From: Buddleja alternifolia
Taxonomy: Eukaryota > Streptophyta > Magnoliopsida > Lamiales > Scrophulariaceae
Reading direction: 5' to 3'
DNA length: 64,000 nucleotides
Assembly (NCBI GenBank): GCA_019426215.1
Contig: CM033397.1
Location: forward strand, 23,438,480 to 23,502,479
Part shown: piece by piece, positions 4,470 to 50,431 of the stretch
Position numbering within the stretch: position 1 is the stretch's first letter
How the letters are laid out: every line of letters starts with the position of its first letter
Notes under the pieces: model-generated
Seen by the model: only the letters and a program-made list of their open reading frames with translations
Told to the model about the DNA's origin: nothing
The model's database searches: none
Program-made: the position numbers and the translations under genes

Positions 4470-5816
4470 TGATGGTCCCAAGTGGCATACGAAAGGGTCT
4501 AGAAGGGGGGGGGGGGTTGAATAGACCCTGAAATCTTTTTAAAATTCAAAAATTTCGTGTTACTTTTCAAAGATCTGAACGCTTGGAAGGCTGAGCGCTT
4601 GGGTCAGGCGCTTCAGTAAAAATAACTTAGACTTAGTGAGTTTAGCAATTTATCAAAGTAGGGTAACGCTTAGATCACTTAATCAGGGTTAGCACAGCGG
4701 AAATGATTTTTAGCGTTCTTTTAGATAATTTAATCGCTTTGCAATTTTACTTGTCTTTTATAATAATGTAAAATGACAGATACAAGACAGTCAAATATAA
4801 ATGACACAATAATTTGTAAGGTTCACTGGGTGATGTAATCCCAGCTACGTCCTTCTTCTCCTTTTTCACTTGGAGAAAATTACTAAGATGATTATCAAAG
4901 AATCACACAGAATCTTCTACAAGATAGTAAAGAATGAAAATGATCTCGGGCTCCTTGATCACACAGATTTCAGCACCAATGAAGATCGTCTTCTACAAGC
5001 TTCTCTCACTCAGAAATACTGCCTGTAATGTGTTCCAACAACTTTTCTCACTCAGATGAAAGGTTGAGGTTTTTGTCACAAGGGTTTGTTTGTATTTGGG
5101 AAGATCAAACAACTTGGAATATCTCAATGGGAATTTAGGTTTCTTCTTTGGAAGATGTTTGAGATATTTGTAACTGTCTGAAATGTAGATAAAAAGCTTG
5201 AAGGAATTTTGGCTATGGAGATTCTAAGTTTTTTCTTGTGTACGTAATTTTCTCTTGTAAATGTTTTGTACCGTGCTTTTCTAGGGTCTGCTGAAGGTAA
5301 GGTATTTATAGGCAATTCTTGGGATCTGTCTGTTGGACACATGTAGGAGCGTGCCTTTCATACAGCGCGTGATTTTACCTAAAGCCTGACATTCCTGAAA
5401 CACTGCTGGCACCGATTGGATGGTAGCAGCTATGAACTCTGAAGTTCTGACAGTCTGGTCAAAAAGGTGGTTTGTCCACAGGTCACAGTAGCTTTGAGCG
5501 CTTGATCCATAAATCCTGAAAAAGGTCCTTTAGCGTTTGACGGACGCTAAGAGACAAATCTTCATCTCTGGTTGACTTCAGACGCTGATCTTCAACTTCT
5601 TCTCTAATAGACTCACCTAGAATTCTATTTGTGATTCAGTATCTAATACTTAGTCTAAAACCTACAAAGATAAAAATTACAAGCCTAAACAAAATTACAA
5701 ACTTTTAAACGCTTAAACAATGATCTATGGAAAACATAAACTTACATTTTATTTGGGGTCTAACATTGAATCCTATCTTGTCATCATTAAAACATCGAAC
5801 ATGAAATTTCCTTACA
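4470..5816 (-). repeat. 3' LTR of the complete SIRE element (1347 bp)
   Basis: Starts (on +) TGATGGTCCC and ends CCTTACA at 5816, next to the polypurine tract. The TATA box is TATTTATA at 5303-5310 (- strand promoter). A run of 12 G lies at about 4505-4516. Compared with the 5' LTR it lacks about 141 bp, corresponding to 17772-17912 there. The break lies at a short shared GCTT. Confidence 0.92.
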
Positions 5817-5830
5817 ATTTCCCCCTTTTT
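5817..5830 (-). other. Polypurine tract of the SIRE element
   Basis: On the - strand AAAAAGGGGGAAAT, directly against the 3' LTR start. The same tract precedes the 3' LTR of the second SIRE copy (44845-44858). It primes plus-strand DNA synthesis in this class of element. Confidence 0.88.
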
Positions 5831-8800
5831 GATGATGTCAAGACTTTAACTCTTATAACTCTTTTATAATTTAAGAGTTACTTAAAAGAAAAGCCCAAAT
5901 GAATATAAGTTAGCGTTCAAAAAGTTAGTAAAGTTAGCTAAAGTTAGATTAGCTTCAACAAGATGTTTCAGCAATAAATTATTCATATATTGAAAGAATA
6001 AGCATACATGATTTATACTGAAAACAAAAAAAAGAAAGCGACAACAGAAATAAAATAAAATAAAAGGAATTCATTCATTTTTTCTGTCGCTTTGCTCTTT
6101 CTTCGCCTTGGAGAACTTCTAGCGCTAAGTCCATCAAGAGACGATCAATGTCAATCATTGTCGTATGTTGAACTTCATCGTAATCATGCCTACGAAGTCT
6201 GGCGCTTTCATTAAGTTCTAACAACCTTTCCGTCCACTCTCTTGGAGAAATTCCAAGTTCACGAATTAAATCGTGATAGATATCTTTTCTTGGATCTTTT
6301 GACGGTCTCCAATTGTTAGGTATTCTCAGCGGTCCGGCAAAAGGTTGAAATCCCATACCTTCTAAGAATTCAACGTCCAATTCCGGAAGGGGATATCTTC
6401 CTAGATAATACCTTGGCTTTCTCTTTTTAGTTAGCATCTTCTTGATGCTCACTAGTTCTTCCATCATTGATCGCTAATTTTTATTATCAGTCTTTGACAT
6501 TACTTTGGACGCTTGATCCTTTTCTGTATTTTCCCCCTTCTTGGCATCATCAAGAGAGGTTTTCAACTCAGCAACTTCTCTTCGCAAGAGTCAAACTTCG
6601 TCAACTAAGAGAGCAACTTGATGAGCGATGCTCTGAGCAGCGGCATCGGTCGAAATATGTCTGTCAGCATCAGTCGAAGCGCTCTGGGCTAAGTGACGGT
6701 TGAATTCAGATGAGAGTTCAGCGATAAGAGGTGATATGCTCTTCATGATTGTAACAGTGCTTGTGTTTGAAGCGTTTGCAATATCACGACTTCGCGTATC
6801 AGACATTATTCGCATATGTCTATCAGCAGTCTCAAGAATCTTGGAACAGGAACCTTCAATGTTGTGGAGCGAGTTCCGTACTGCCTGTCTGAAGTCTCTA
6901 GCGTCTGAATCACTTTCAGAATCCGAATCGGAAGAAGGACGCTCTGGGGACGGGAGAAGTCCGTAAGACCTAGAAATCGCAGCCTTGCCTTTGGATTTGT
7001 CTCTGATAAAGGGTTTGATAGGCTTTTGTGCAATTTCAGCATGCACTTCTTCAATCGCTTGATCCATGATTGTCTGCAAAAACTGGGGGCTCGACTACCG
7101 GGGCGCTAGAAGAATCTGGCAAAGAAGCCTCAGGAAGATGAGCGACTTCCGCAGTAGGAGCAAAGTCTTCTTCTATAAGTTGGATTGGGGAAGAAGGTTC
7201 TCTAACACCAATGACCCAGAGGGGGTCAAGGGCTTCCATCACATGCCTTGGACTGATCAGGCTAGATTGTGGGATAAAGAATATAGCGTCTTCGCACTCT
7301 TCGGGACTGAGTGCCAGTTGCACATCTTCCGGTAAAGCAATCCCTGAAGTATAACGGTTGAAAAAGTCCAAAATCAATGGCATGAGCGCTTGAGATGCTT
7401 CATGGTCCACTGGCTTGATTAGTGATAACATCTTGGCCACTTGAACATTTGATTCACTAAAGAGCACGGGGTGAAGAGTATATCCTCTGAAATTGCAACA
7501 CCCGGAAAAGTGGTTGAAACTGATGTCCAGCGCTTGGGCATTTTCAAACACTGCTCTCATAGTTTTGTGGAACTCAGCAAACTCAGCGTGTTCATTCGAA
7601 ACATCAACACGAATCTGACTTTGGCCTGGAAGAATTGGTTGTTTACTTGATGAAGTGTCTTCATTCAGGTCAAGAAAGACTCATTGAACAAACCCCTCAC
7701 GAGGATGCAACACGTAGCGTCCGCTTTGGCTGTATAAGGCAAGTTCCTGGCGAATGTAGCTTTCGATGGGTTGACGATATTGTGGCAAAGCGCTCACATT
7801 CCCTGCAATAAACTGACGCTGTTGGAGCAGGAAGGTTGCATATCCTCTGCGTCTGTACCCTATTCCAAACTGAAATAGGAATGGATATTTCACGAGTTCA
7901 TCGAGGGTGTAAAAATGCAAAACAAACTCTTCAGCCCAGCTGGTTGTATTCATCATCCTTCTCTTGCCAAGCTTGATAGCTTTAGCTTGATCTTTTCTAG
8001 AGGCGAGAAATTTCTGAAAGCGTTCCGTTTCTTCTTCATAGTCCTCAGCCCATAATCTGGCAAGATATTCACAAGCCTCATCTTCTATCCAAGAGTTGAC
8101 CGGATTTGGGCGCTCCGCAACAAGAGGTTCTTTTCCTTTCCATAACTTAAGTGGATTAGGAGAGAGAGCGTTCTGAGGAGACTTGATGACGGAGGGGAGA
8201 GCCGAATAGCCTAGCTTGTTGAGATCTTTCTCGTCTGGATTTTTGTTCCAATCACCCATGTGGCGGTTTTTGAAAACAATCTTGTTTGATCGAAGAGGAT
8301 AAAAGGACTCGTCTGAGCGACCGGTGAAATTGAATCGCTTCTCGTCAAATTCGAATCTATTGAACGCTGGACGATGAATGTATTCAAGGCGTGATTGAAG
8401 ACGCTCCAGGTTATATAGACCTAGATCAGCAAAACGCTAAAAAATTTCAAACTTGTAAGAGTCTGAAAGATCAGGCCGATGAAGAGTTGTTTGAAATTGG
8501 ATTTCTGACTCAGCAAGCGTTTGAGTGTCACGTTCTCGGGCGGCATAATAAAATTCAACATCTGGATGATATCCGCGCGGGAAGAAGTCAATGACACGAG
8601 GAGGAGGTCCTGTTGGCATAGGAACGAGGGCAATAGCTTCTGTTGGGATGGGGGCCACTTCTATCGACCGCTCAGCGTTTAAAGTCGCTTCACTGGCTGA
8701 TGTTTCAGCGTCAGGAAGGTCTTGAGATGCTTTCTTAGCGATATCCACAACAGTTGCCATGTCCACGTCTATTTTAACGGGAATCTCCGAGAGTGGAGGG

Positions 8801-8837
8801 GCATCAGCGGTAGGTGTCTCTTGAGGTCCATCTTGAG

Positions 8838-8920
8838 CTGATACATGTAAGCGATTGAGAAAAGCAAGCAATAATTCCTACTAAATAGAAATTATAAACT
8901 AAAAGGACTACATCGCTTAC
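8838..8920 (-). other. Second intron of SIRE third ORF (83 nt)
   Basis: Donor CAGG/GTAAGC, acceptor ATGTATCAG/CTCAAG. Removing it joins NIPQ to AQDGPQ in frame (phase 1). In the second copy the matching intron (40261-40334) has the donor changed to CTAAGT but keeps the acceptor CCCTTTCAG. Confidence 0.7.
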
Positions 8921-9100
8921 CCTGAGGAATATTATCGACTATCTCAGTCGCTTGATCTGATTCTTGGACAAGTTCCTCAGGCTCCTGAACTTGTTCTTCG
9001 AGTTCTAAATCGATAAAAGAAGTTATTGAATCAACATGAATTGGGATATTTAGTTCTTCAAGAGTGTTGAGAACATAATGAATATCTGCTTCATTTGGTG

Positions 9101-9173
9101 CTGAAAGAGTTTTTATCCTAGTGTTAGTGACTAACAAGGAAAGGATAGAATAATTTGCTTAGCAAATACTTAC
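9101..9173 (-). other. First intron of SIRE third ORF (73 nt)
   Basis: Donor CAGG/GTAAGT, acceptor CTCTTTCAG/CACC, U-rich body with a branch-like CACTAAC. Removing it joins LSNVQ to APNEADIHY in frame (phase 1). The second copy has the same junction at 40002-40080 (GTAAGT...ATATTTCCAG). Confidence 0.75.
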
Positions 9174-10450
9174 CCTGAACATTGGAAAGCCTTTCAGATG
9201 GAGAAACGGCTTGAGGATGTGAGCTGACTTCGGGAACAGCGTCAGAAGGAGGAACACTCGCTGACTCTCTAAGCGCTGGTTTTGCTGTAGCGCTAGAGGA
9301 TGCTGCGGGAGTAGAGGTAGGAGTACGCCTTCGTGCAAGCGGTACTTCTTCGGCCACTGCTTTCTCTTCTTCCTCGGGAACGGAGAAGGTAAACGTTGGA
9401 GGAGGGGATGGAGATTTAGGAGGGGGAGAAGGAATCTTTTGCTTCTTTTTGGGCTCCGGCTTCTTCTTCTTTGGTTCAGGCTTCTGTTTCTTTGCTGACT
9501 TGGATGGCTCAGTGACTTTGAGAACTATCTTTCTCTTAGATCGCTTGACCACCACTTCTTCAGAGGACGAGGATGATGATGAAGAGGAAGACACTTGATC
9601 TTCATCATCACTTCGAACAACTCCTTCGGCTTGGAGTCGCTGACGCTCTTCTTTGGGAACCGCTGCTCCACCATGTTTTCGAGGTTTGAGCATTCCACTA
9701 ATCATCTTTCTGCCGTAGAATTTGGAAGCTGGAATCTTTGTGCCAAAAGATTGTGTATAACCACAAGCGCTAAGAATACGACTTAGCACAATCCCATAGG
9801 GCTTGGGATTTACTGACTTGGCCATCGCTGCCTTGAAGCGATTAAAAACGTAGAGAGACCAGTTAACTTTTAACTTGGTCAGAATGGCCACCATCATCTT
9901 GTACTGAACGTTTGTGACTTTATCGAATGTCCCTTTTCTGCATTCGATCATCTTTGAACATAGATCAGCGAGAATAACGTATTCGCCCTTCATATCTTTT
10001 TTCTTGAAGTTCGGCTCATACGCATTATCAACATCTTCTTTCTTTATCAACTCCCAAACTTTTGTAGCATCTCCAAGAGTGACATTTTCGACCTCAGTGC
10101 CATCATTGGGCAGAATCAGCAATGAAGAAATCAAGGAGGGAGTGAGAACAAAGGTCTCTTTAGCAAAAGGGAAGACATAGGATATGGAAGTTCCGTCTTC
10201 AAAAATCTGGGCATTGTTGAAAAAATAGAGAGATTTTTCTTCAAAGTAGTTAAAAAGTAGTGATCATATCTCTCAAACCAGATTCTTAAACGAGTGGAAG
10301 AACCGTTCGAAGAGGAAAGTTCTGGTTCTCATAAAGGTAATCCCAGTTAATCAGAAATCCGGTGTTAACCGTAACTGGTTTTTCAATACGGGAAGTTTTT
10401 CCGATGTCAGACTTGGATGATTTTGAAGATTTTGAAGCTTTGAGTGCCAT

Positions 10451-11191: not shown

Positions 11192-14100
11192 TTATGTGTT
11201 TAAGTCAATCATACCTAATTCACTTCTCAGAGTGAGAAAGCGTTGTTCGTTGAGCGCCTTGGTGAAGATGTGCCAATTGTTTGTCAGTTCCAATGAAATG
11301 CATGGAGATATCTTTCTTTTGAACATGGTCACACAAGAAATGGTATCTAATGTCAATGTGTTTGGTTCTAGAATGAAGGACAGGATTTTGGGTCATAGCT
11401 AAAGCGCTTTGGTTATCACAATGGATTGGGGTAGGACCTAGGATTGTTTCATAATCTCTAAGTTGTTGCCTCATCCAAAGGATTTGTGCACAACAGCTTC
11501 CAGCAGCTACATACTCTGCCTCAGCGGTAGAAGTCGCTATGGATTGTTGTTTCTTACTATGCCACGAAACTAGCCTATCACCTAGAAATTGACATGTACC
11601 ACTAGTACTTTTTCTATCTATTTTGCATCCTGCAAAATCTGCGTTTGAATAACCAACTAGTTCAAAAGGAGAGTCCTGTGGATACCATAAGCCCACATTT
11701 TGTGTGCCTTTTAGGTATTTAAGGATTCTCTTGGTAGCATTTAAGTGTGATTCTCTAGGATCAGATTGAAATCGTGCACACATGCATACCGAAAATATAA
11801 TATCAGGTCTACTAGCGGTAAGATAAAGAAGTGATCCAATGATACCTCTATAGTTAGTGATATTGATTTTCTTCCCACTTTCATCTTTATCGAACTTAAG
11901 CGTTTGGCTCATTGGAATTTTTGAAGATGATGCATTTTCCATACCAAATTTAGCTTGGTTTATAAATGTTCCAGTAGTGAGTTGTTTAACTTGTAATCCT
12001 AAGAAGAAAGTTAATTCACCCATCATGCTCATTTCAAATTAATCTTGCATCATTTTCGAAAATTTCTCACACAATCGCTTATTTGTAGAATCAAATATAA
12101 TATCATCAACATAAATTTGGACTAAGAGAATATCTTCATTATGGGTAATTTTAAATAACGTTGTATCAACGCTACCTTTTGAGAAGCCTTTACCAATAAG
12201 GAAGATAGAGAGAGTGTCATACCATGCTCTTGGTGCTTGTTTAAGGCCATAGAGTGTCTTATCCAATTTGTAGACCATACTCTTGCCATGGTTGTTGATG
12301 AATCCTGGAGGTTGCTCCACATATACTTCTTCTTGGAGTTTACCATTCAGGAAAGCACTCTTCACGTCCATTTGGTATACTGTGAACTTGTTGAATGCGG
12401 AAAACGCTAGGAACATTCTAATCGCTTCAAGACGGGCTACTGGGGCATATGTTTCATCAGAATCAATTCCTTCTTCTTGACAATAACCCTGAGCGACAAG
12501 TCTGGCTTTGTTTCTTATAACAATGCCATCTTCATCCATCTTGTTCCTAAAAACCCATCTAATCCCAATAACTCCTTGGTGAGTTGGTCTTGGTACTAGT
12601 GTCCAAACCTTGCTTCTCTCAAATTGGTTAAGCTCTTCTTGCATTGCTTCTACCCAACTTGAATCACTAAGCACTTCATCCACTTTCTTTGGTTCCATTT
12701 GAGATAGGAAGCTTGCGAACATGGCCTCATTGATTGTAGCGGACCTAGTTCTAACAGGTGTTTCAATATCTCCAATCACTAGCTCTGGTAGATGGTCTCT
12801 AAGCCATTTGCGGTCTGGTTGGAACGGGTTGAGAGACTCTTGATTATCAATCGCTTGATTCTCATATGTCTCTTGCGTAGACGCTGCATCATTCATAGTT
12901 CCAATCTGCTCTTGATGATCATTCTCTTCATGATCATCAGCAATTCTGACATTATCATTATTGTTAACCTCACGAGTATCCTTAGGAAAAGGTACACGAA
13001 TCTCATCATCTTCGTCATCACTATCATCACCAAGATTGATTTGTGACGCTTGTTGGGTGAGATCTTCAATTCCTACATCATCAGGATTAACTTTACTCGG
13101 TTCTTGGTTAGCATCATCAAACGCAACATGAATGGATTCTTCAACCTTTGATTTGATCTTATTTAGGATGCGAAAGCTCTTTCCATTTTTGGCATATCCT
13201 AGAAAGATTCCTTCATCCGCTTTAGGATCAAATGTCTTTAGGCTTTGGAATCCATTGTTATGAATGAAACATTTTGAACCAAAAATATGAAAATATGAAA
13301 CGTTAGGCTTACGTCCCTTCCACAACTCATATGGAGTCTTCTCATGTTGCTTGTTGATCATACACCGGTTCTGAGTGTAGCAAGCGGTGTTGATGGCTTT
13401 GGCCCAAAACCTTTGAGGCAGCTTGGACTCTGCTAACATCGTCCTTGCGGCTTCTTTAAGCGTTCTGTTCCATCGCTCAGCAACTCCATTCTGTTGAGGT
13501 GTTCTACGAGCAGAATACTCATGAAGTATTCCTAAATCTGTACAAAACTTCTCAACAAATTGGTTAGTAAATTCAGTTCCTCTATCGCTTCTCATTCTCT
13601 TCACCCTTAGATCTTTCGAATTTTGCATTTGACGAATTAGCGCTGTGAGCTTGACACTAGTTTCATCTTTGGTCGCTAGAAATTCTACCCATGTATAGCG
13701 AGAGAAATCATCAACTATTACTAGCGAGTACTTTTTACCACTAACACTCATGATTTGAATAGGGCCAAACAAATCTAGATGCAATAGTTCAAGAACTCTA
13801 GAAGTAGATAGACATGGTTTCTTTTTAAAAGATGATTTAACTTGTTTACCCATTTGGCATGCATCACATAAGCGATTTTTCTGAAAGGAACCCTTAGGTA
13901 ATCCTTCTACAAGATTTAGCGATATTACTTGAGAGATTGCCTTTAAGTTGAGGTGATTCATTTTTCTATGCCATAACCAACCCAATTCATTTTGACTTTT
14001 AGCAACAAAGCATGTGGGGTTGTTATCAGATGTAGAATCCCAATCTACTAAATACACATTGTTTGTTCTTTTTTCTCTTAATTTAGTAGACTTAGTCTTA

Positions 14101-14405
14101 GCGTCGTTAACGTAGCAGAAGTCGCTTGAGAATTTTACTTCAAAGCCTTTATCACAAAATTGACTAATGCTTAACAGGTTATGCTTAAGACCCTCAAGGT
14201 AATATACATCACTGATCATGATGTTCCCCCTATGCATGATACCTATACCTTTGGTTTTACCTTTGGAGTTATCACCGAATATAACTTGAGGACCATTGGT
14301 AGCTTGATAGTTGACTAGAAGATTTTTAGAACCAGTCATGTCTCTTGACGATCCACTATCAATGTACCAAACTGAAGTATCGGTGCTGGCTCTAGGTACC
14401 TTCAT
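11192..14405 (-). pseudogene. SIRE pol: protease, integrase, RT, RNase H (broken)
   Basis: Starts at ATG 14405 (MKVPRAS), in a different frame from gag. In order: protease motif [11 protein letters not shown]-pre-integrase LWHRKMNHL with C-x2-C; integrase with HLDLFGP, SDRGTEF and [10 protein letters not shown] (D, D, E kept); RT with YVDDI and [11 protein letters not shown]; RNase H with ADFAGC, STAEAEYVAAGS and HCDNQSA. Breaks: the stop at 12039 (Gln codon CAA to TAA; the second copy reads MQDQFEM there) splits RT from RNase H; an in-frame loss of 8 codons near 11950; and a 2-nt deletion near 11260 that shifts the C-terminal frame, so the true end LGMIDLNT lies at 11192. It would replicate and integrate the element if intact. 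Confidence 0.92.
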
Positions 14406-15639: not shown

Positions 15640-16635
15640 CTATTCATTGGATAATCGCTTTGAGACTACTGGCGCTGAGAGATTTTGAGTAGGGGACGGA
15701 GGCGCTTGGTATGGAACTGGCGCTACTGGTTGGGGTGCAGAGTACACTGGCGCTTGATACTGAGGCACTGGAGCAGGGAGAGGAGTCTGAAATGACGTTT
15801 GTCCGATAGGATTTCTCTTTTCATATCTTAGAAATTTTTTGAATTTTTTGACCAATAAAGCCATTTCCTTTTCTTCATTTAATTCCATAGTTTTAGCCTC
15901 ACTAACCGCTTTACCCTTGCTTTTGGTTGTAGCGATTAAAGCTCCTGATTTAGTCACTGAAGTCGATGTGTCGCTGACTTCACCCAATTCGAACTCAAAT
16001 GCCTTTAACTCTGAAAAGACATGCTCTGGAGTAAGAGTCTCCAATGTCTGTGATTCTCTCATAGCAACAGTCTTAATTAGATACTTGCTTGGAAGACTTC
16101 TGAAAATCTTGTTGACCATTTCTTTGTTAGTCAATTCCTTGTCTAATGACGCTAACTCTGTAACAAGCAAAGTAAACCTTGCGTCCCATTGTTCTAGCGT
16201 CTCATTGGGCTGCATCTTGAAATGCTCAAATTTTTGCATGGCTATGAAAAACTTATTCTCCTTCATTTGTGCTGATCCTTCACACACTATAGCCAGCTTA
16301 TCCCATATTTCTTTGGAAGTCTTACATTGCTTGATCTTGTTAAATAATGCATCGTTGTCTCCTAACGCTGAGTAAAGTGCACTTCGTCCAACATTATCTA
16401 GATTTGCTCTTTTTCGATCCTCAGGCGTCCATTCTAACTTTGGTTTCTCGACATAACCATCTGGAGTGGCCTCGGTTGCTCCAGGGGCTCGAGTTACAAC
16501 TTTCATAATCTGAATGAGACCACCTGTAATTACATCACACATTTCACTATCGCATGAGCACAAGTAAGCGAATGCTCTAAGTTTCCAAGAATCATAATTT
16601 GACTCTACCAACTTAGGAATTTTGTTGAAAGCCAT
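15640..16635 (-). CDS. SIRE gag, N-terminal (UBN2-type) part
   Basis: Starts MAFNKIPKLVESNYDSWKLR, the usual start of plant Copia gag proteins (xFxGxNYxxWKxxM). The UBN2-type capsid region spans about residues 75-230 (ALYSALGD, AKEIWDKL-like SKEIWDKLAIV, ETLEQWDARFTLLVTEL, LPSKY). A Pro-rich tail (QAPVYSAPQPVAPVPYQAP) precedes the TAG. It forms the structural shell of the particle. It begins about 100 bp after the primer site. Confidence 0.85.
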   Translation of the reverse strand: MAFNKIPKLVESNYDSWKLRAFAYLCSCDSEMCDVITGGLIQIMKVVTRAPGATEATPDGYVEKPKLEWTPEDRKRANLDNVGRSALYSALGDNDALFNKIKQCKTSKEIWDKLAIVCEGSAQMKENKFFIAMQKFEHFKMQPNETLEQWDARFTLLVTELASLDKELTNKEMVNKIFRSLPSKYLIKTVAMRESQTLETLTPEHVFSELKAFEFELGEVSDTSTSVTKSGALIATTKSKGKAVSEAKTMELNEEKEMALLVKKFKKFLRYEKRNPIGQTSFQTPLPAPVPQYQAPVYSAPQPVAPVPYQAPPSPTQNLSAPVVSKRLSNE

Positions 16636-16734
16636 AATGAGATGTTTTTAAAGAGAAAAAGCAAGGCGACTAAGTTAAAAAACAAATGGATCTGAACAAG
16701 TAGTTATGCTCAGAAACGCTTAGGTTTCTAATTC

Positions 16735-16752: not shown

Positions 16753-18240
16753 TGATGGTCCAAAGTGGTATACGAAAGGGTCTAGAAGGGGGGGTTGAAT
16801 AGACCCTGAAGTCTTTTTAAACTTCAAAAATTTCGTGTTACTTTTCAAAGATCTGAACGCTTGGAAGGCTGAGCGCTTGGGTCAGGCGCTTCAGTAAACA
16901 TAGCTTAGACTTAGTGAGTTTAGCAATTTACCAAAGTAGGGTAATGCTTAGATCACTTAATCAGGGTTAGCACAGCGGAAATGATTTTTAGCGTTCTTTT
17001 AGATAATTTAATCGCTTTGCAATTTTACTTGTCTTTTATAATAATGTAAAATGACAGATATAAGACAGTCAAATATAAATGACACAATAATTTATAAGGT
17101 TCACTGGGTGATGTAATCCCAGCTATGTCCTTCTTCTCCTTTTTCACTTGGAGGAAATTACTAAGATGATTATCAAAGAATCACACAGAATCTTCTACAA
17201 GATAGTAAAGAATGAAAATGATCTCGGGCTCCTTGATCACACAGATTTCAGCACCAATGAAGATCGTCTTCTACAAGCTTCTCTCACTCAGAAATACTGC
17301 ATGTAATGAGTTTCAACAACTTTTCTCACTCAGATGAAAGGTTGAGGTTTTTGTCACAAGGGTTTGTTTGTATTTGGGAAGATCAAACAACTTGGAATAT
17401 CTCAATGGGAATTTAGGTTTCTTCTTTGGAAGATGTTTGAGATATTTGTGACTGTCTGGAATATAGATAAAAAGCTTGAAGGAATTTTGGCTATGGAGAT
17501 TCTTAGCTTATTCTTGTGTACGTAATTTTCTCTTGTAAATGTTTTGTACCGTGCTTTTCTAGGGTCTGCTAAAGGTAAGGTATTTATAGGCAATTCTTGG
17601 GATCTGTCCGTTGGACACATGTAGGAGCGTGTCTTTCATATAGCGCGTGATTCTACCTAAAGCTTGACATTCCTGAAACACTGCTGGCACCGATTGGATG
17701 GTAGCAGCTATGAACTCTGAAGTTCTGACAGTCTGGTCAAAAAGGTGGCTTGTCCACAAGTCACAGTAGCTTATCACATTTAATGCTCTTATCAGACATT
17801 TAATGCATTTGAATTTATTTCCCGTTGGAAATAAATGTCCGTTGAATGATTGCATTTAAGTCCTTCGTGACTTGAGGATTTATTTCAAGTGAATTTGTCA
17901 TTGATCGCTTAAGTGCTTTGAGCGCTTGATCCATAAATCCTAAAAAAGGTCCTTTAGCGTTTGACGGACGCTAAGAGACAAATCTTCATCTCTGGCTGAC
18001 TTCAGACGCTGATCTTCAACTTCTTCTCTAATAGACTCACCTAGAATTCTATTAGTGATTCAGTATCCAATACTTAGTCTAAAATCTACAAAGATAAAAA
18101 TTACAAGCCTAAACAAAATTACAAACTTTTAAACGCTTAAACAATGATCTATGGAAAACATAAACATACATTTTATTTGGGGTCTAACATTGAATCCTAT
18201 CTTGTCATCATCAAAACATCTAACATGAAATTTCCTAACA
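16753..18240 (-). repeat. 5' LTR of the complete SIRE element (1488 bp)
   Basis: Starts (on +) TGATGGTCC and ends TTTCCTAACA at 18240, followed by ATAAG. The TATA box is TATTTATA at 17581-17588 (- strand promoter). The G run is only 7 long here. It carries the 141-bp block (about 17772-17912) that the 3' LTR has lost. It drives the genomic RNA leftwards. Confidence 0.92.
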
Positions 18241-24322: not shown

Positions 24323-25182
24323 AGATAGTGCCTAACATCTTTTAAAAATTTCTTTCGTTGATGAAAAGTTAGATCAAGGGGTGTAATTCCAGCAATAATA
24401 AAATTAGCATAATCAGCATGCCTAGGGGTTGTAATAGCAGAAAGAACAAAAAGTTGCTCATCCGAGAATTCCTCCCCTATCGGGGTCTCATCTAAGTTCT
24501 TATCAAATAACTCTAGTCTAGAGAGGTGATTAGCTACTACATTCTCAGTTCTCTTCTTATCTTTTATTTCTAATTCGAATTCTTATAGTAGTAAGAACCA
24601 TCTACGTAGTCTATGTTTTGCATCTTTTTTAGCAAGCCGCTATTTTAAAGTCGAATGATCAGTGTATACTATTACTTTGTTCAGGACAAGATAGGAGTGT
24701 AATTTGTCAAAAACAAAAATTACAGCTTACAATTCTTTTTCAATCGTAGCATAATTAATTTGGGCCTCCTTTAAAGTACGACTAGCATAGTAAATAGTGT
24801 GAAAGATTTTACCCTTTCTCTAACAAAGTACGGCTTCTACCACAGTGTCTCTTGCATCACACATCATCTCAAATGGCAAACTCCAATCTGGTGATGCCAT
24901 CGCAGGTGCCGAGATTAACTTCTCCTTTAGAGCGAGAAAGGCCTCTTTCTTCACCACTTCTTGAATTTGAGGATTTGACCTTATTTGTGGTTGGATGGTA
25001 GGTTTTGAGCTCTCTTCCATCAGGATGTTGTGCATACAAATCACCAAACAAATCCCCTTGATGTCAGTAGTCTTCCATCCGAAAGCTTTTTTGTGTGCTT
25101 TCAATACATGCATTAACCTTGCTTCTAGTTGCTCTGTAAGAGAAGAAGAAATGATTAATGGAAAGGTTTCATTATCATTCAA
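24323..25182 (-). pseudogene. Gypsy RT N-terminus joined to RNase H (RT core deleted)
   Basis: Starts with the segment before RT (LEARLMHVLKAHKKAFGW, DIKGICLVICMHNI), reaches IQEVVKKE, and then jumps straight to LKEKLISAPAMASPDWSLPF, which is the start of the RNase H part. The polymerase core with the YxDD box is missing. RNase H continues with stops (TLKEAQINYATIEKEL, VIVYTDHSTLK, NVVANHLSRLE) to the start of integrase at 24322. So this copy lost its polymerase by an internal deletion. Confidence 0.8.
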
Positions 25183-25422
25183 ATGTACATATTTAAGATG
25201 AGAAGGTAAAGGTTTGAGGTCAAGAGTGGGTGGCTCTTCGATTGAAGGTTTGGATTTTTTTCGAGGAGTGGCGTGGATTTCTCTCTAAGCTATGGGCAGC
25301 TTCTTATTGTTCATCACTAGCAGAGTCAACATTCTTGGAGTTCATGATGTATAAATCAAGTGGATTGTCTAAGAGATTTTCCTGAAGGTGCTCAACAATC
25401 AAAGGGTCAAAAACATCTATTC
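25183..25422 (-). other. Linker between Gypsy protease and RT
   Basis: Short degenerate stretch with no recognised domain. In Athila-like elements this position is the linker between protease and RT. Confidence 0.4.
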
Positions 25423-31727: not shown

Positions 31728-34716
31728 TGTTAGGAAATTTCATGTTAGATGTTTTGATGATGACACGATAGGCTTTATGTTAGATCCCAAAGATATGTAA
31801 GTTTACCTTTATTAGAATATGTATAAGCGTTTAAAATTGTCGAGTTGTAATTTTAGTTAAGGCTTTTTATCTTTATAGTTTTAGACTAGTATCTAGCGCT
31901 TGAGCTATGATAGAATTCTAGGTGAGTCTATCAAAGTGAAATCGAAGATCAGCGTCTGAATACTTTGAAGATGAAGGATTCTTTAAGCGGTTGTTAAGCG
32001 CCTAAGAATCGATAATGCCACAAGCGCCTGTCGTCACCTGAATTTAATCAGAAGTCAATAAAGCTATTAAATGCAATCATCAACTGGCATTTATTTTCAA
32101 CGGAAAATAAATTAAAATGTATTAAATGCTTGATAAGAGCATTAAATGTGATAAGGACTATTGACGGTACGGATAAGCCTTCCCCATTGGCTGTCAACTC
32201 AAAGTAGGTCTGCTACCCCCTCTATGCACCAGAATTTCAGAGATGTCAGAAAAAGACTAAGTCACACGCCTCGTGCTTCACACGCTCCTGCTTGTGTCCA
32301 ACGGACAAATCCGGAGAAAAGTCTATAAATAGATACTTACAGCTCAACCCTAAATTCCGAGAATTATTATCAAAAACTTGATATACACTTACGTTGTTGA
32401 AATCTATATTCATCCCTAAAAGCTCAAATCCTACATAGCCAAAATACTTGTGAGATTTAAACATCTCTACAGCCAAACTAATATCTCTTACCTCTTCTTA
32501 GAAGAATCATCCTTTCTAAAGAGATGTTACAAAAGTGTTTGAACATTTCAAATCAAACAAACCGTGATAAAAACCCATCAAACTCTACAACCTTTATGAC
32601 GAAGTTGTTGAAGACAAATCATTATTTCTGTGTGAGAAAAGCATTGTCAGAAGCAGATCTTAGCCGAGTTGAAATCTTTGTGACCAGGGAACTCGAGATC
32701 GAGTCTTCACGATTTACTATTGTGTTGAAGTTGTCTTTATGAAGCTTCGTGATTCATTTTTAGTGAATTCCTCCTGTGTGGAAAAGAGTAGAAGGACGTA
32801 CCTGGGATCACACAAACCTAGTGAATCTTACAATTCTCGTGTCTTCTTACTTGCTGTTTTATTACTTTATTGCTCATCATTTACATATATTATCGTAAAG
32901 CATACATTATCAAAGTTCTAAAAGCGACTAAACACTTACTAAGCGCCTAATCTTTCAGACTTGTCAAAATCTTCCGTTGTGCTAACCTTGATATAAGTGT
33001 TAAGCGCCTGATCCATCTTGATCAAGTACTCAAAACTATTGTCTAAGTTATCTTTACAAAAATAAGTCTTAAAACTCGAAAAGAAGTTAAGGGTCTATTC
33101 AACCCCTTCCCCCCCCCCCCTCTAGACCCGTTTATATGCCACTTGGGACCTGTTAGGAATTTCATGTTAGATGTTTTGATGATGACAATGAGGATTACTT
33201 GTTAGACCCCAAAATATGTAAGTTTGATTTTAGTAGAAATCATGTATAAGCTTTGAAGCGTTAGAATTGTAATACGCTTTATAGGCTTTGTTTTATTTTT
33301 ATTCTAGATTGTTAGGCTTTGTAGTCTTAGGTTGAGCATCTGACGAATTCTGAGTGAGCTTATCAGTAGTTAAGTTTGAAGACTCAAGCGCCTGAAGTCT
33401 GAATGAAGATAAACATTCCAAGCGTCCAAAACAACCAGCTATTTCAAGCGTTCATTAGGACAGAAGTTATTCAAGGATGAATGAGCGTCTATTAATGACT
33501 GATTTCACCTGAATTCATTTCTAAGTCCAGAAGGAGTTTAATGCAAATATTCTCAGTGCAATAAATGCCAACGGCCATTTAATTCAAATGCATTAAATTC
33601 TGATAAGAGCATTAAATGTGATAAGCTCTTTCAGACGTACGGAGAAGCCACCCCATTAGACTGTCAACTATTCACATACTGCAGCACCAACTTTTGTGCA
33701 ACAGATTTTCAGGAAAAAGGACAAAAGTTATTCACTCGCAGAAGTGTGAGACACGCGCCTGTGCATGTGTCAAACAGACACTTTTTCCAAGATTGCCTAT
33801 AAATAGGACTTCAACAACAAGCCAAAGAGACCCCGATTGATTCCAAGCCAAATAGCTGTTGATTTGAAGTCTCATTCCTTAAATTCTCAGAAAAAACAAA
33901 AAATTCAAGCAAACATCCTCTTTGCTTTTCTCCAATCCTTGAGACAGTCAACCAATATCTCAAACATTCTTTTCAGAGAAACCTACGTTACTATTGAGAT
34001 ATTCCCAGTTGTTTGAACTGTTTAGAAAAAAGCCCATCAAACAAACTGTTTAGAAAAACCCCATCCAAGCCTCACGATCTGTGTGAAGTCGAAGTTAGAT
34101 ACTTGCATTATTTCTGGGTGAAAGAAGCAAGAGGATAGAAGTGATTTGTAGCAGAAATCTGTGTGATCAAGGAGCTCAAGTCATTGACATCCATCTCTCC
34201 CTAATCTGTAGAAGATTCTGTGTGATTCTTTGAGAATAATTTAAGTGGATTGCCTCCAAGTGTTCAAGGAGAAGAAGGACGTAGTTGGGATTACACCACC
34301 CAACGAACCTTACAAATATTGTGTTATTTACTTTACAGTCAATTTTCTTATTATCATATCATTACATAAATTGATTAAGTAAAACGCAATCAAAAGCTAA
34401 GCAACTAAGAAACAGTTTGTGACGTTAAAAGATTTCAAACAAAAAGACTATAAAATCAATTTCGTTGTGCTAACACTGATCAAAGAAGTGAAAACTTAAA
34501 CCTATTTGGTTATAGTATTCAAATCTTGAAGTCTAAGTTAACTTTCTAAAAATAGTCTTCAACAGACGCTCAGTCAAGAGCCTACTTCTCAAGCGTCCAA
34601 CACATTTTAATACGAAATTTTTTAAGTCGAAAAAGACATCAGGGTCTATTCAACCCCCCCCCCCCCCTCTCCTTCTAGAGCCTTTCGTATGCCACTTGGG
34701 ACCAACAGGACCAACA
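31728..34716 (+). mobile_element. SIRE solo LTR, TSD CACAC, itself split by another LTR
   Basis: Starts TGTTAGGAAATTTCATGTTA at 31728. The sequence runs to GGGACC at 33150, is interrupted by a second LTR, and ends CCAACA at 34716. CACAC flanks both sides (31723-31727 and 34717-34721). TATA box CTATAAATA at 32323-32331. A 12-C run lies just before its end (33109-33120). The sequence to the right is the gag of the second SIRE copy. The left neighbour is the family A LTR, so the rest of that gag is missing and the CACAC match (in a CA-rich context) should be taken with some caution. Confidence 0.75.
33151..34707 (+). mobile_element. SIRE solo LTR nested in a SIRE LTR, TSD GGACC
   Basis: Starts TGTTAGGAATTTCATG and ends GGGACCAACA. 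GGACC lies on both sides (33146-33150 and 34708-34712), and after it the outer LTR finishes with AACA. Length 1557 bp. TATA box TATAAATA at 33798-33805; 14-C run at about 34651. No internal domain: a solo LTR. Confidence 0.9.
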
Positions 34717-38944: not shown

Positions 38945-41900
38945 ATGACTCCACGAAAATCTTTAAAATATGCTCCTGAAGGCTCTTCCAAAGAGCCCAA
39001 ACCTGCTCTTATCAACGAAGGCTTTCTCACACATAACCAATAAAAATTTCTCAACATGGGAAATCCTTGACCAGGTTGAGAAGGCTAGTTTAAAGAGCCT
39101 CATGACCCTTCACTCTAAATTTCAAGAGAGAGGAACTCAAATCCTTCTATGACAACGCCGTCATATCTGAGGATGCCAACTCCATCTCTCACTCTTTTTC
39201 CTTCGCCCAAAACCTTTCATTCTCTCCCCCAAATTGATTTCTAAAATTTTCAAATGCTCGAATGAAGGTGGACTAGTAAAAGAAGTCAAAATGGGGTGAT
39301 GTGACCAGAGTCTGGGAACTCATCAAGAGACCAGAATCTGGCACTTACGAGCTAAATTTTAAGAAAAATGTCATCAAGGGAGAGTATGCCATTCTTGCAT
39401 ATTTCTGCCTTAAGATCGTCGAGCGCAGAAAGGGTTCCTTTGACAAGATCTCCCATCACCAATATAGGATGATGATTTCTATCATCCTGGAGATGCATAT
39501 AAATTGGTTGATGTATATATTCAATAAGATCAAAGTGTCACTGAAGGAAGAGGTTAACCTAAAGCCTCATGGGTTAATCCTTAGCCATTTTCTCAACTGC
39601 TGCGTTTTCATCAACACCGCTGGGACAGACATCTCGGGTTTAAAATTCTATGGACCCAAGATGATTACTGAGCTCCTCAACCCTAAGTGATTGGGTGGAG
39701 CATCCGTTCCTAAAGAAGAGCGTGAGCAACTTCTCGGTTTCAAAGAATTCAGAGTGACACTGAGGAACAAGAGACTTCCTCCGTAGATGAACCAGAAGAA
39801 GTGGTCGTCAAGCGACCAAAGAGGAAATCTTCCAAGGCTGACACTGAGCCTTCGAAGAAGGCCAAGAAAAACACTCTCCTTCTCTTACCTTCATCTTTAA
39901 AGAAGAAGAAGATAATGTACCGCTAATTCACAAGCGTGCATCAGTGTCTCAAGAAGTCAAACCTATGCCTACTCAAAATGTGCTTGAGATTAGTGAGCAG
40001 GGTAAGTTCTATTATGAGTTTAGTACATCATTTCCCTTTTTGTCAAGGTTATCCTGCTATTGCTAGGGTAATATTTCCAGCTCCTTTAATAGGAATGAGA
40101 GACACTGCTGAAGTGTTAGCTGAGAAGAATATCTCAATCGATGTAGTCCCTCTCTCTATGATTGAAACTATCACTAAGGAGATAGTGTCTATGGAGCCTG
40201 AGGCCGAGGAATAATATGTTCCAAATGCCAAAGTGACTGATGTCGATGCAAGTCCTTAGGCTAAGTGTTTATCCATTTTTTTGGTGTAATTTCTACTAAG
40301 TTAATTTTTTTTTCTCAAACGCTTTCCCTTTCAGCTCTGATTCTGGACGATTCGAAAGCAACTCTTCCCACTCAAGTTGTAATGAAGTTTGATGTCAATC
40401 TGACATCGTTGTGGAGATCACTAAACAAATTGACCAAGTCTTCCCTGACACTAAGATTTCTCCAATCAAGAAGACGACATTGGATGCTAAGCAACCTATT
40501 ATAGAAGGGGCTCTGATCATCCCAACACCAACTCCTCCCCATCTTGCTCCCCACGTTGACTTCTTTCCAAGAGCCAATGATGAAAATGTTGAGTACTACT
40601 ATACTTGGAGAGTCAACAACACCAAGCAAATGATTGATATGGAGATCTCATTTCAGAAAACTCTCCACAATCCAAGCCTTTCAGATAATCCACGATTTGA
40701 AATTTCTGAGTACGCTCCAAGAAGTGCACGCTAGAGAAATTGAGTAAACTGTGGATGACGCTGAATACCGCATAGTTTGATGCCAATCTCTTTGCCAAAA
40801 TTGGTAAAAGTGAAGAATTGAACTTCCCATTTCGCAACACCAACATCAAAATGAAAAACTCAAATCCTACCGGCCGCTTAAATGACCCCGACGAAGATAT
40901 GTTAAATTCTATGGGTTATTCACCTAAGCCTAAGACTGTCTCCTCCGCAGAGAATCAGTCTTTCTCCAAGCCACTCAAGTTATGGAAAGGGAAAGGACCC
41001 ATGGTGGATGAGGGTCCTAACCCTATAAATAAATGGGTCAAGGAATAAGCCCATGAATGCCTTGCTTGGGTATGGTTAGATGACTTTGAAGAAGAGCATG
41101 AGAATTTGAGAAACTTGTCAGTGCCAAGAAGAACAATCGTAAAGCTTCAAAGGTCGGATTATTTAGATGGCAAACACATCTAAATGGGTTGAGGAATTCA
41201 TATTGTACCGAAACACTATTGATGAAATGGTGCAATATCCATTCCTTTTTTAATTCGTGATTGAGTACGGGCAAAGTGGATTTGCCATTTTCCTACTCAA
41301 CTAGAGAGAGAAGTTAGTTGGATCATTAGCGAGTTGCCATATTTTTTATAGAATGTCGAGCGCGATGTCAGAGATTCTCTTCGGCAGATCATTCAAAGCA
41401 GATTTACTGGAAATAATGAAGACACTTCGATAAGTGAACATGATGAAGATAGAGGTGTTGTGGCAAATCCTTGGGCCGGTCGGGATCTTGTTGATTATTG
41501 CATTGAGTTTCATCATGATTGCTGGGCCATGTTTGAAAATGCCCACTCGTTGGATATCTCAATTATTCCTCACTTTGGAGTTAATTCTTTCATAGGTACT
41601 CTCTTTTGCCCCTATTTTTTTAAGCGATGCTACCATCTGGCCTGAATGATTTCTATAATGCGGCCAGTGAATTCAGCATTGGCTCAGTCGATCATGCCAA
41701 TTCTTATGGACTAATTCAAGAGCTACATTCAAGGAGTGACTATTTTCGAGGATGTGGGCTTTGTTCAGCACATAAAAGCATGAAGATGCTTTGTTCTTTA
41801 TTCTGGGAACTCACCACTTGAGTCCAAGGCACGTGATCAAAGTGATTGGTCCACTCTGGGTCATTCATGTTCATAAACCTTCTACTTCTATGAAAATCAC

Positions 41901-44612
41901 ATAAATGGAACGTGGCTCAGTTCTATCTGTCACTGAGCCACAATTGACAATTCTTCCAAGTGCTCAAACAGAAGAATCGCTTGCTGCAACAAATCACGTG
42001 GATTCAGCGATTCAAGAGGTTTCAGAAAAATTAGAGGACCAAAAGATTGAACCACTCATTCGATATCCTATAAAGGAAAAAGCCATTGCATCTGGGTCCT
42101 ATGGTCACATCCCATCTCCTGTATCCTCTCAGACTTTTCCAGCTCATTCGATTGGGGTGAAAGCGATCAAGAGGAGAATGATTTCAAGAAAGCGGTCATG
42201 AACTCTCTTAAACAAATCCAAGGTTTACGTTCTCGCATTATTGATCAAGACAAAGATCATCTGAAAATGTTCACCGAGACAAGATAGAAAGATATCAAGA
42301 ATGAAGCGCTGAAATGAACTACCACTGCCCTTGATGGTGTTCATCCTCTTATCAATGAACTCTCATCTTTCTTCAATCGATCGTTGGCTAAAAGATCTAC
42401 TGCAGATGTTGAGCGTCATCTTCGCTCAAATATTGTCAATTCTGTCTTGGCAGACAAAGTTGCTGCTCTGGTGGAAGAATTCAAAATCATGACTGAACAC
42501 CTAGCCGCAATCCACTTTACAGTTGTCGATGATGTCAAGAAGGAGAAAAAGGAGGCAAAGACCAATTCTGTTAACAAGACTGATGACAATTGCTGGAACC
42601 AGATGTTTTACGCTATTGTTGGCTAGAAGAAACAAGTCACCAAGTCAGTTAACAGGACTGGCGACAATCGCAGGAAGCAGATGTTTGAAGCAAACCTAGC
42701 ATTACAAGCAAAGGTATCTCTTCCATGACATTGACACTGAGTTTCTAGAAGTAATGAGATGTCATTCCTTTGCTACACCTTTACAAAGACCCCTTAAATG
42801 GAAACCATTTGGTTACATGGTCTGCGAGACATATATGAAGATCTTATTCGAACTCTTGGTGTTAGACCAAGGGACTGTGTTGGTCCCAAGTGGCATACAA
42901 AAGGATCTAGAAGAGGGGGGTTGAACAGACCCTGAAGTTTTCTTCAACTTCAAATATTTGTATTCAAAAGTATTGTGGACGCTTAAGAATGTGGACTCTT
43001 AAGAATATAGACGCTTGGCTGAGCGTCTACTTGAAGACAATTTTTAATAAAGTTAACTTAGACTCAAGATTTGAATAGTATAACCAAATAAGGCTAAGCG
43101 TTCAGTTCTTTTATCAGGGTTAGCACAGCGGAATAGTTTAAGTCTTCTTTTGAAAAGGTTTAGCCTCACAACGTTTTATTTAGTTGCTTTCAACTTTAAA
43201 CAGTTTTATCAATGTGTTTACTTAACCGTTTATGCAATGATATGACAATAAAAAAATCAACAGTAAAGTCAAGAACACAAAGTCTGAAAGGTTCGTTTGG
43301 TGGTGTAATCCCAACTACGTCCTTCTTCTCTTTTTTCACTCGGAGGAAATCCACTAAGATGATCTTCAAAGAATCACACAGAAACTTCTACAAACGAGAG
43401 GATGGAATAGATTTGAATGACTCGAGCTCCTTGGTCACACAGATTTCAGCTCCAAGACACTTCGATCCACTCGCTTTTTTCACCCAGAAATAATGCAATT
43501 ATTCAACTTCGACTTCACACAGATAACAAGGCTGAATATGGGTTTTTTCTAACGGTTTATTTGATTTTGAAAGTTCAAACAACTTGGAATATCTCAGTAG
43601 TAGTGTATGGTTCTTCTGAAAAAGATTGAGATATTGGTTGACTGTCTCAAGGATTGATGAAAAGCAAAAGGAATGTTTAATGTAAATATTCGAGCTTTTC
43701 TGAAAGTTTTAGGATTAAGACTTCAATGCAACAGAGATTCATCTTGTAAGCTTATTGTCTATTTTGGCTTGTTGCTGAAGTCCTATTTATAGACTTTCTT
43801 AGGTAAGTATCTGTTGGAGGCATGGCTTGGCGCGTGTCTATCACTTTCGCGAGTGAACAACTTTATGTCCTTTATCCCTGAAATTCTTCTGCAAAAGTTT
43901 GTGCCGCAGACTCTGTAAAGTTGACAGTCCAATGAAAAGGGTTCTCCGTACGCCCTGGACTAATTATCATATTTAATGCCCTTATCAGCATTAAATGCAT
44001 TTAAAATTAATGTCCGTTGGACATTAATGCTCTGAGTAAAATTGCATTTAACTCCTTCTGGACTTCGGAATAAATTCAGGTGAATTCTTGTCTTGATAGA
44101 CGCTCATTCGACCTTGAATGATCCTTAGCTGAATTTTTACATCAAAGCTTGGAATAGCTTGACGCTTAGACTCTTGCTTAGAAATCTTCATCTTCATTCA
44201 GACTTCAGACGCTTGTACTTCAAACTTAACTACTGAGAAACTCACACAGAGTAGTATTAGATGCTCAGTTTAAGATACTTAGCCTAATAGTTTAGAATAA
44301 AAATAAATAAAGTCTTATACAAATATAAATCTCAAAGCATATACATGTTTTCTAATAAAATCAAACTTGCATATTTTGGGGTCTAATAAAAAATTCTAAT
44401 TGTCATCATCAAAACATCTAACAGGAAATTTCCTAACAGACTGGGTAGAAAGGCTTCTGGAGCTTGAAGCAGAGGCCATGCAAAGTCGCGAAGATGATGC
44501 CAATGAATGTCATACCACCATGATAGACATTGACAGAGTCCTTCAAGATCTTTCTAGAGAAATTTGTGAGGTAGAGCAGCATGAAGCAGCCAAGCGACAG
44601 CAAAGAAAATAA
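38945..44612 (+). pseudogene. SIRE third ORF pseudogene (second copy), introns retained
   Basis: Aligned start ATG 38945 (MTPRKSLKYAP). Exon 1 to 40001, intron 40002-40080 (GTAAGT...TTTCCAG), exon 2 40081-40260 (180 nt, same as in the other copy), intron 40261-40334 (donor changed to CTAAGT, acceptor kept), exon 3 onward. Matching blocks: WELIKRPESGTYELNFKKNV, HHQYRMMISIILEMHINWLM, GALIIPTPTPPHLAPHVDFF, LKLWKGKGPMVDEGPNPI, MFENAHSLDISI, ECHTTMIDIDRVLQDLSREI; stop at 44612. It has many stops and frameshifts (for example 40212, 40736, 41046) and is interrupted at 42878-44438 by a solo LTR. Confidence 0.75.
42878..44438 (-). mobile_element. SIRE solo LTR in the third ORF, TSD GACTG
   Basis: On + starts TGTTGGTCCC and ends TTTCCTAACA. 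GACTG lies on both sides (42873-42877 and 44439-44443). Removing it and one GACTG rejoins ...RPRD with WVERLLELE of the third ORF, matching SPREWTERLLELN in the other copy. TATA box TATTTATA at 43784-43791 (- strand). Length 1561 bp. Confidence 0.92.
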
Positions 44613-49372: not shown

Positions 49373-50431
49373 TGTTTCGAATATAAAACAAACACGAATG
49401 AGGTGGATCCGAATAGTCGTTCCAAGCCCCGCGATAATTCACAACTTAGAATTATCTTTCAGCCCCTGCGTTCGATACGCCAAACGGTGGTTCAAGTCTT
49501 AAACGAAAAGTTGATTAAATGTATTCGAACTTCTCTTCATCTTCTTCGAGTAGACCGCAATTGATGAAACTATTTATCGTTTTCGAATGAAATAATAACA
49601 TAGTGAAGGAAAAATTCAAGTCCAGATACAAATTACCTATCGATACTTAAATCTGGATACGAGATAATTTATACCTCCATGAGAATCTCTCGATCGAATA
49701 TATTATTTTTCAACCCCTGCGTTCGATTCGCTAAACGGTGGTTCATGTCTTTAATTAACATTTTAGTTATTCATTTCGAGTATGAGAATTACGAATGAAA
49801 AACTCAAATCAAGATACAAGTTACCTATCGATACTTAAATCTGAATACAAAGTAATTTATATTTTCAGGAAAGTCTTCAATTCAGAAAAATTATAGGCAA
49901 TCGAATGCCGATACAAGCCTTGAAAAGGCAAATTCCATCGAGTCTAATACTAAATTACATTACGGCTACTCCTAAATTATGCTACGATCTACTCCTACAT
50001 TACGCTAAAACTACTCCTAAGACTAGAGTTAATTCTAGGAAAACGAAAATGCAGAAGTCTGATGATCTTGTGATGTCTTTTTTTTTTCTTTCTTTTCTCC
50101 GCGGCTCCTATATATTTTGTCTTCGGGAACCGTCTTCAACACATGTTTCTCTTTTTTGGAAACTGCCGTCAACTGCATCCAACCGTCTCTTTCAAAATCT
50201 TTAACTTGGCGCGTCTTCCTTGAATGTAGATTATTAGCTTTTTGGATTTCATTTTATTTTTCAGATTTGATTCTTGGACTTTTTGTCAATTCGGCCCCTA
50301 TCTTTGCTATTTTCTGGATTTAATGGGCCTTGTCTTATCTTTTTGTGGACCTAGAATTTGTTCGAATTTCCCCAATTTGGGCTATTTGGGCTTTGTACTT
50401 CGGAAGCCCCAATTATTTTATGGTGTAAACA
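49373..50431 (-). repeat. 3' LTR of the LARD-like element
   Basis: On + TGTTTCGAATATAAAAC ... ATTTTATGGTGTAAACA. Short ORFs seen in it recur in the other LTR and are chance frames. Confidence 0.88.

Follow-up and report, generated by a model that had tools for sequence, protein, structure and literature searches.

Two introns inside the third open reading frame of a SIRE-type Copia retrotransposon of Buddleja alternifolia, and the genomic traces of their splicing

The window analysed here, a stretch of 64,000 nucleotides of the Buddleja alternifolia genome (assembly GCA_019426215.1, contig CM033397.1, positions 23,438,480 to 23,502,479), carries two copies of a retrotransposon whose third open reading frame (ORF3) is interrupted by two introns. 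Element 1, on the minus strand, is a Ty1/Copia long terminal repeat (LTR) retrotransposon: it has two LTRs and a 5-bp target duplication, and its Pfam matches place the integrase domains upstream of the reverse transcriptase in pol, which is the Copia order. The two LTRs differ by a Kimura two-parameter distance of 0.0289 (1344 sites aligned), and the primer site reads TGGTATCAAAGC. A long additional ORF lies between pol and the 3' LTR, as in Sireviruses; from this structure we take the element to belong to the SIRE lineage. ORF3, of about 1,400 codons, extends from an ATG at 10450 to a stop at 6077-6075, downstream of pol, and both introns are internal to it. The copy of ORF3 in the window is decayed, with exon 3 split into several open pieces; in other copies exon 3 runs without an internal stop for up to 945 residues. 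The features of element 1 are as follows:

16753..18240, minus strand: 5' LTR, placed by sequence ends and LTR alignment; CTTAT target duplication at 18245-18241
15640..16647, minus strand: gag open piece (Pfam Retrotran_gag_2, E 8.8e-21)
12039..14405, minus strand: pol open piece (Pfam order Pol_BBD, gag_pre-integrs, rve, SH3_retrovirus, RVT_2)
9174..10450, minus strand: ORF3 exon 1, frame broken in the window copy and open only from 10263
9101..9173, minus strand: intron 1, 73 nt, phase 1, GTAAGT...TTTCAG, exactly lost in 7 of 90 fetched copies
8921..9100, minus strand: ORF3 exon 2, 180 nt, defined by length conservation and a frame test
8838..8920, minus strand: intron 2, 83 nt, phase 1, GTAAGC...TATCAG, with exact losses found genome-wide
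6075..8837, minus strand: ORF3 exon 3, with several stops and frame changes in the window copy
5817..5830, minus strand: polypurine tract AAAAAGGGGGAAAT, read from the sequence, preceding the 3' LTR
4470..5816, minus strand: 3' LTR; CTTAT target duplication at 4469-4465

Hallmarks of Sireviruses related to the LTRs include multiple identical polypurine tracts and CGG-CCG repeat boxes (PMC2829016). One polypurine tract is seen in element 1.

Element 2, on the plus strand, carries both introns at the same places:

40002..40080, plus strand: intron 1, 79 nt, at the same site as in element 1
40081..40260, plus strand: exon 2, 180 nt, decayed, with 113 of 158 aligned bases identical to element 1 and two stops in the spliced frame
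40261..40334, plus strand: intron 2, 74 nt, donor mutated to CT, stem kept

The junctions proposed in the initial annotation are exact to the base, both joins are in phase 1, and the exon between them measures 180 nt in both elements; one correction concerns the donor of intron 2 in element 2, which reads CTAAG and is hence mutated. Within ORF3 of element 2 lies an inverted LTR-like stretch (42878-44439) that matches 33150-34707 at 76 % and is apparently a nested insertion.

The genome (853.6 Mb, 429 contigs) was scanned for copies, and 90 were fetched. The first 30 (L001-L030, L001 being the window copy) were the best of 40 matches in the first genome search; L031-L050 were 20 picked by hand among 150 scored matches, from the more diverged ones and some for their long open frames; and L051-L090 were the next 40 taken down the same list. 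L036 and L070 could not be scored for exon 2, which is exactly 180 nt long in 83 of the 88 remaining copies and 177-213 nt in the other five. Among the nearest 30 copies, window copy included, exon 2 (180 nt) and intron 2 (83 nt) have constant length in 30 of 30, and intron 1 measures 73 nt in all but two of the 30, which have 72 or 74 nt. Across all 90, the usual lengths are 73, 81 or 82 nt for intron 1 and 80-83 nt for intron 2. At loci with an intron-length segment (counts that include the non-homologous row L070), intron 1 starts with GT in 80/82 and finishes with AG in 79/82, and intron 2 does so in 86/87 and 84/87, respectively; the pattern exceeds chance. The spliced frame runs open through exon 2 in 72 of 84 rows, and both other frames are stopped in all 84 (rows of 180 nt, with the window copy counted twice and L036 and L070 excluded). 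Of the 77 rows that retain intron 1, 75 have a stop when the frame is read through it. The U content is 37-46 % in the introns and 22-30 % in the adjoining exons (three copies). Both segments therefore have the properties of spliceosomal introns: GT-AG ends, U-richness, and a frame that is restored on their removal.

Evidence that these introns are spliced comes from genomic copies that lack them. Intron 1 is missing exactly from seven fetched copies (L034, L037, L055, L058, L078, L084, and L088), and intron 2 is missing from two, L058, in which both introns are gone, and L043, in which the joint bears later mutations and the loss was probably exact. Genome-wide, the spliced exon 1-exon 2 junction occurs at 32 places versus 797 with intron 1 retained (32/829), and the spliced exon 2-exon 3 junction at 49 places versus 1455 with intron 2 retained (49/1504); these scans accepted sites with at most three mismatches from the pattern, and the spliced and retained patterns differ in reach. 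Reversed patterns gave 0 in all four scans. Matching the scans by position, four copies lack both introns, two of which were read directly (L058 and L095). The product of a microhomology deletion across the TCAG repeat at the intron ends, one base shorter than the splice product, was found at 0 genome places for each intron. Among 89 loci (window copy left out), deletions of at least 15 nt within 9900-8500 comprise eight exact introns and 18 others; of these 18, one is the intron-2 loss of L043, one is a deletion in L036 that starts in exon 1, takes out both introns and ends in exon 3, and the other 16 do not touch the introns. Exon skipping was considered for L036; it is read instead as a deletion or template switch, as the joint seems to cross a short repeat in exon 2.

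Alternatively, the two segments could have been inserted, perhaps as small inverted-repeat elements, and the copies without them could reflect excision, later deletion or the state before insertion. We regard this as very improbable. A 9-bp inverted repeat within intron 2 speaks for it, but 81 places match the splice product to the base whereas TCAG-repeat deletion products number 0, and both segments have GT-AG ends and a high U content, and their removal restores a single frame. Moreover, because intron-less rows are scattered among intron-bearing ones and element 2 has both segments, loss fits better than gain.

In a tree built from exon columns only (89 rows; L036 and L070 left out), seven changes are needed to account for the seven losses of intron 1, and starred branches force four or more of these. 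Shuffling the loss labels on the same tree gave a mean of 6.9 changes, so the losses are not clustered; support is low inside young subfamilies, and template switching among copies may blur the branching. One intron-less copy, L034, was followed from end to end: it has the start of a 5' LTR, gag at the expected distance (95.8 % identical to the window over 501 nt), the end of a 3' LTR, and its own target duplication, TGTGT; therefore, its template was full-length RNA minus intron 1.

Two further joints bear on the fate of spliced forms. In L094 (G000:C2:7018450-7019060), intron 2 is exactly gone and the normal donor of exon 1 is joined, in frame, to a point inside exon 2 right after TTTAG, which fits an alternative acceptor; this is a single copy, and a deletion is the other possibility. 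The exon 2-exon 3 joint of L094 recurs identically at nine genome places, which are not all alike, since the one at C1:26173143 has a normal exon 1-exon 2 joint upstream. Given these nine recurrences, an intron-less form seems to have multiplied.

These genomic sequences show, with high confidence, that the introns of ORF3 are spliced and that spliced RNA is sometimes reverse-transcribed into the genome. Two points weigh against this reading: the spliced shares of 3.9 % and 3.3 % are approximate, because the patterns allow up to three mismatches and have unequal reach, and the end-to-end check covers one intron-less copy, L034. The exact intron-less genomic copies uphold the initial annotation in that the element is a SIRE-type Copia and its ORF3 introns are real and conserved. 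Its proposal that the genomic RNA escapes splicing holds for the majority (797 and 1455 sites with the intron retained), but not for the 32/829 and 49/1504 sites at which the spliced form was reverse-transcribed.

In the model that we propose, the element is a high-copy SIRE-type Copia with ORF3 cut by two phase-1 spliceosomal introns. Because spliced RNA has repeatedly been reverse-transcribed and inserted, splicing takes place at exactly these sites in cells where the element replicates, and the genome sequence shows that either intron can be removed by itself or together with the other. Since intron-bearing copies remain the majority, most packaged genomic RNA escapes splicing. Unspliced RNA would serve as genome and as gag-pol message, from which only a truncated ORF3 product could be made, given the stop in intron 1; spliced RNA would yield full-length ORF3. 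RNA structure in the introns, chiefly a stem in intron 2 over its 5' splice site, may help to keep splicing partial.

A retrovirus-style route to ORF3, by which a donor in the leader is joined upstream of ORF3, gag-pol is removed, and the internal introns are spliced too, is unlikely. ORF3 does lie after pol, and env splicing has been reported for the Gypsy element Bagy2 (PMC7264820); however, gag is still present in the single intron-less copy checked, L034, and for Sireviruses the proposed route is an internal promoter (PMC2829016). The comparison with retroviral env made in the initial annotation is apt in part; it fails in that the ORF3 frames examined showed no membrane segment, so a role as Env is not indicated. 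In these frames (open for at least 250 aa, ten copies), the search for a transmembrane segment gave a top 19-residue Kyte-Doolittle mean of 1.48. For SIRE1, stop-codon suppression is the described route to the extra ORF, the internal promoter being proposed for other Sireviruses, and expression of ORF3 in Sireviruses was termed unproven in 2010 (PMC2829016).

The introns appear to be constrained in sequence. Intron bodies were expected to drift; instead, between two subfamilies of 30 and 40 rows, the majority letter differs at 6 of 154 intron sites versus 112 of 496 third codon positions and 68 of 993 first and second positions. The larger set, subfamily B, excludes L036, L070, L085, L044, L048, and L069, as well as rows whose exon 2 is under 93 % similar to that of L031 and rows closer to L001. 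Introns differ from third positions (Fisher test, 7.7e-9), which is not so for first and second positions (0.22), and a McDonald-Kreitman-like comparison of introns with third positions gave 0.019. Variation within the nearest 30 copies is about 1 % in introns and exon 2 alike, so a lower mutation rate in the introns is not the cause.

The RNA folds of the introns have the following parts:

8920-8912 with 8855-8847, minus strand: intron-2 stem, with an inner hairpin at 8893-8873, supported by fold and conservation
about 9167-9153 and 9147-9114, minus strand: intron-1 hairpins, from the fold

The first nine bases of intron 2, GTAAGCGAT, pair with ATCGCTTAC near its 3' end, and the inner hairpin is enclosed between them. 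For five of the six commonest variants, none of 300 shuffles reaches a folding energy as low; the remaining variant, which occurs once, has z -2.6. The stem is complete with nine pairs in 78 of 86 copies, whereas 7 copies form eight pairs and 1 copy forms six. Variable cells number 11/1547 in stem columns versus 202/5484 in unpaired columns (L036, L070, and L085 left out of intron folds and pair counts). The corresponding stem in element 2, AAGTGTTT/AAACGCTT, shows one compensatory change from A-U to U-A and one G-U pair. The hairpins of intron 1 are weaker (z -2.3 to -3.2 in six variants). Within the stem, GTAAG belongs to the 5' splice site and CTTAC is presumably the branch point of intron 2. 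From these data, intron 2 could be a cis-acting splicing switch, in which the conserved 9-bp stem hides its own 5' splice site and the putative branch point, such that a set share of the transcripts stays unspliced as genome and the remainder gives full-length ORF3. We hold this switch only tentatively, as a reading somewhat more likely wrong than right, and the more general proposition that intron structure restrains splicing is put forward with the same reserve.

Several observations weigh against the structural proposal. GTAAG and CTTAC double as splice signals, which accounts for part of the stem conservation. Exon windows also fold (of 48, one has z -4.9 and one -3.4), and the most stable stretch overall lies in exon 1. 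The mean pairing probability of the 5' splice site is 0.71-0.91 in five copies, against a background mean of 0.55 and a 90th percentile of 0.80; not all 5' splice sites stand out, because their pairing overlaps the upper background. Covariation in favour of the intron-2 stem comes from one distant, decayed copy, element 2, and the folds of element 2 are not significant (28 and 65 of 300 shuffles were equally low).

Genomic RNA might instead be spared by a separate transcript pool, as in BARE, or by export with an element-encoded protein, as in Cer1, and the structure of the introns would then be irrelevant; we rate this a little below an even chance. BARE packages an unspliced class of transcripts (PMC3735527), export of unspliced RNA in Cer1 requires the protein CERV (PMC10309623), and the structural evidence in the ORF3 introns is modest. 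Alone, however, such a pool or export leaves unexplained why the introns are more conserved than third codon positions and why the intron-2 stem is conserved in excess, and the 3-4 % of spliced sites indicate that pools leak. A separate packaged RNA pool like that of BARE is a serious alternative for the escape from splicing, and is compatible with the remainder of our model. If the intron-2 switch does exist, partial splicing would be encoded in an RNA fold, with no export protein running it, and its leakage would be measured by the few per cent of insertions that lack introns.

We found no report of introns in a Sirevirus ORF3 among titles and abstract openings of the open-licence literature, an absence that is not proof. 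SIRE1 and other Sireviruses resemble element 1 in the Copia order of pol and in having an additional ORF after pol and before the 3' LTR; their description (PMC2829016), in the accessible part, does not mention introns in this ORF, whereas ORF3 of element 1 has two. A December 2025 review describes plant LTR elements as generally intron-less, with Ogre and EVADE as exceptions (PMC12786077). Ogre, a Gypsy, is likewise a plant LTR element, and its intron is removed from a fraction of the transcripts only (PMC6317226), whereas here two small introns lie within ORF3 of a Copia. BARE1 and EVADE are partly spliced plant Copia elements (PMC3735527, PMC12786077); their splicing yields a Gag-only message, whereas here splicing opens the third ORF and does not affect gag-pol in the copy checked. 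Bagy2 and Athila, both Gypsy, have an ORF after pol with splicing reported or predicted (PMC7264820, PMC2829016), but it concerns the env message as such and not, as here, two introns inside the ORF.

More distant parallels exist outside plants. The cerv ORF of the nematode Gypsy element Cer1 occupies the env position and is expressed from a spliced, multi-exon mRNA, with unspliced RNA as genome; superfamily and host are different, and its first three exons are common to gag (PMC10309623). Intron-bearing Penelope elements also retain introns through retrotransposition, but they are not LTR elements, and antisense templates or self-priming have been proposed as the mechanism (PMC3846280). Exact intron removal on passage through RNA is known from experiments with intron-marked Ty elements in yeast (PMC12786077); the present family is a natural experiment of this kind, in which the introns are mostly kept.

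To the intron-bearing plant LTR elements, the family contributes a pair of introns in ORF3, which persist at 797 and 1455 countable sites. Its 32 and 49 exact losses form a built-in record of splicing and a natural gauge of how frequently spliced RNA is reverse-transcribed, and the expression of a Sirevirus ORF3 becomes testable in one plant. Where an element depends on spliced as well as unspliced RNA, it has to restrain splicing, and little is known of how plant elements manage this.

Concerning the ORF3 protein, five pieces gave no Pfam family at E <= 0.1, and a protein search with an exon-1 piece as query returned 4649 candidates, zero of them at E <= 0.001. Single-sequence AlphaFold2 models were unusable (mean pLDDT 36.0 for an exon-1 piece and 36.7 for an exon-3 piece). 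The idea that exon 2 is a duplicate of the start of exon 3 was dropped (39 residues aligned, 23 % identical, E 12). ORF3 is seemingly faster-evolving than gag: the element of L034 is about 84-87 % identical to the window in ORF3 versus the 95.8 % of the gag sample (L034 against 10981-5909 for ORF3; L092 against 16540-16040 for gag). Five copies (L037, L038, L083, L085, and L090) are without 12 nt right after the intron-2 acceptor, at the start of exon 3; this leaves the frame intact, and the missing stretch is a single unit of a 12-nt tandem repeat.

Other features of the window include a weak RNase H-like reverse-transcriptase match at 24820-25284 (PF17919, 30 bits versus a cut-off of 29.8), which is probably the remnant of another retroelement. 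Direct repeats at 49373-50431 and 52730-53788 (1059 nt, 96.4 % identical) start with TGTTTC, end with AAACA, and are flanked on both outer sides by GTTAG; together they delimit a small LTR element of about 4.4 kb. A host gene region at 57186-62752 contains an RRM above the cut-off (59653-61401) and a SPOC match below it (61973-62749), a combination that presumably marks a protein of the FPA/SPEN type.

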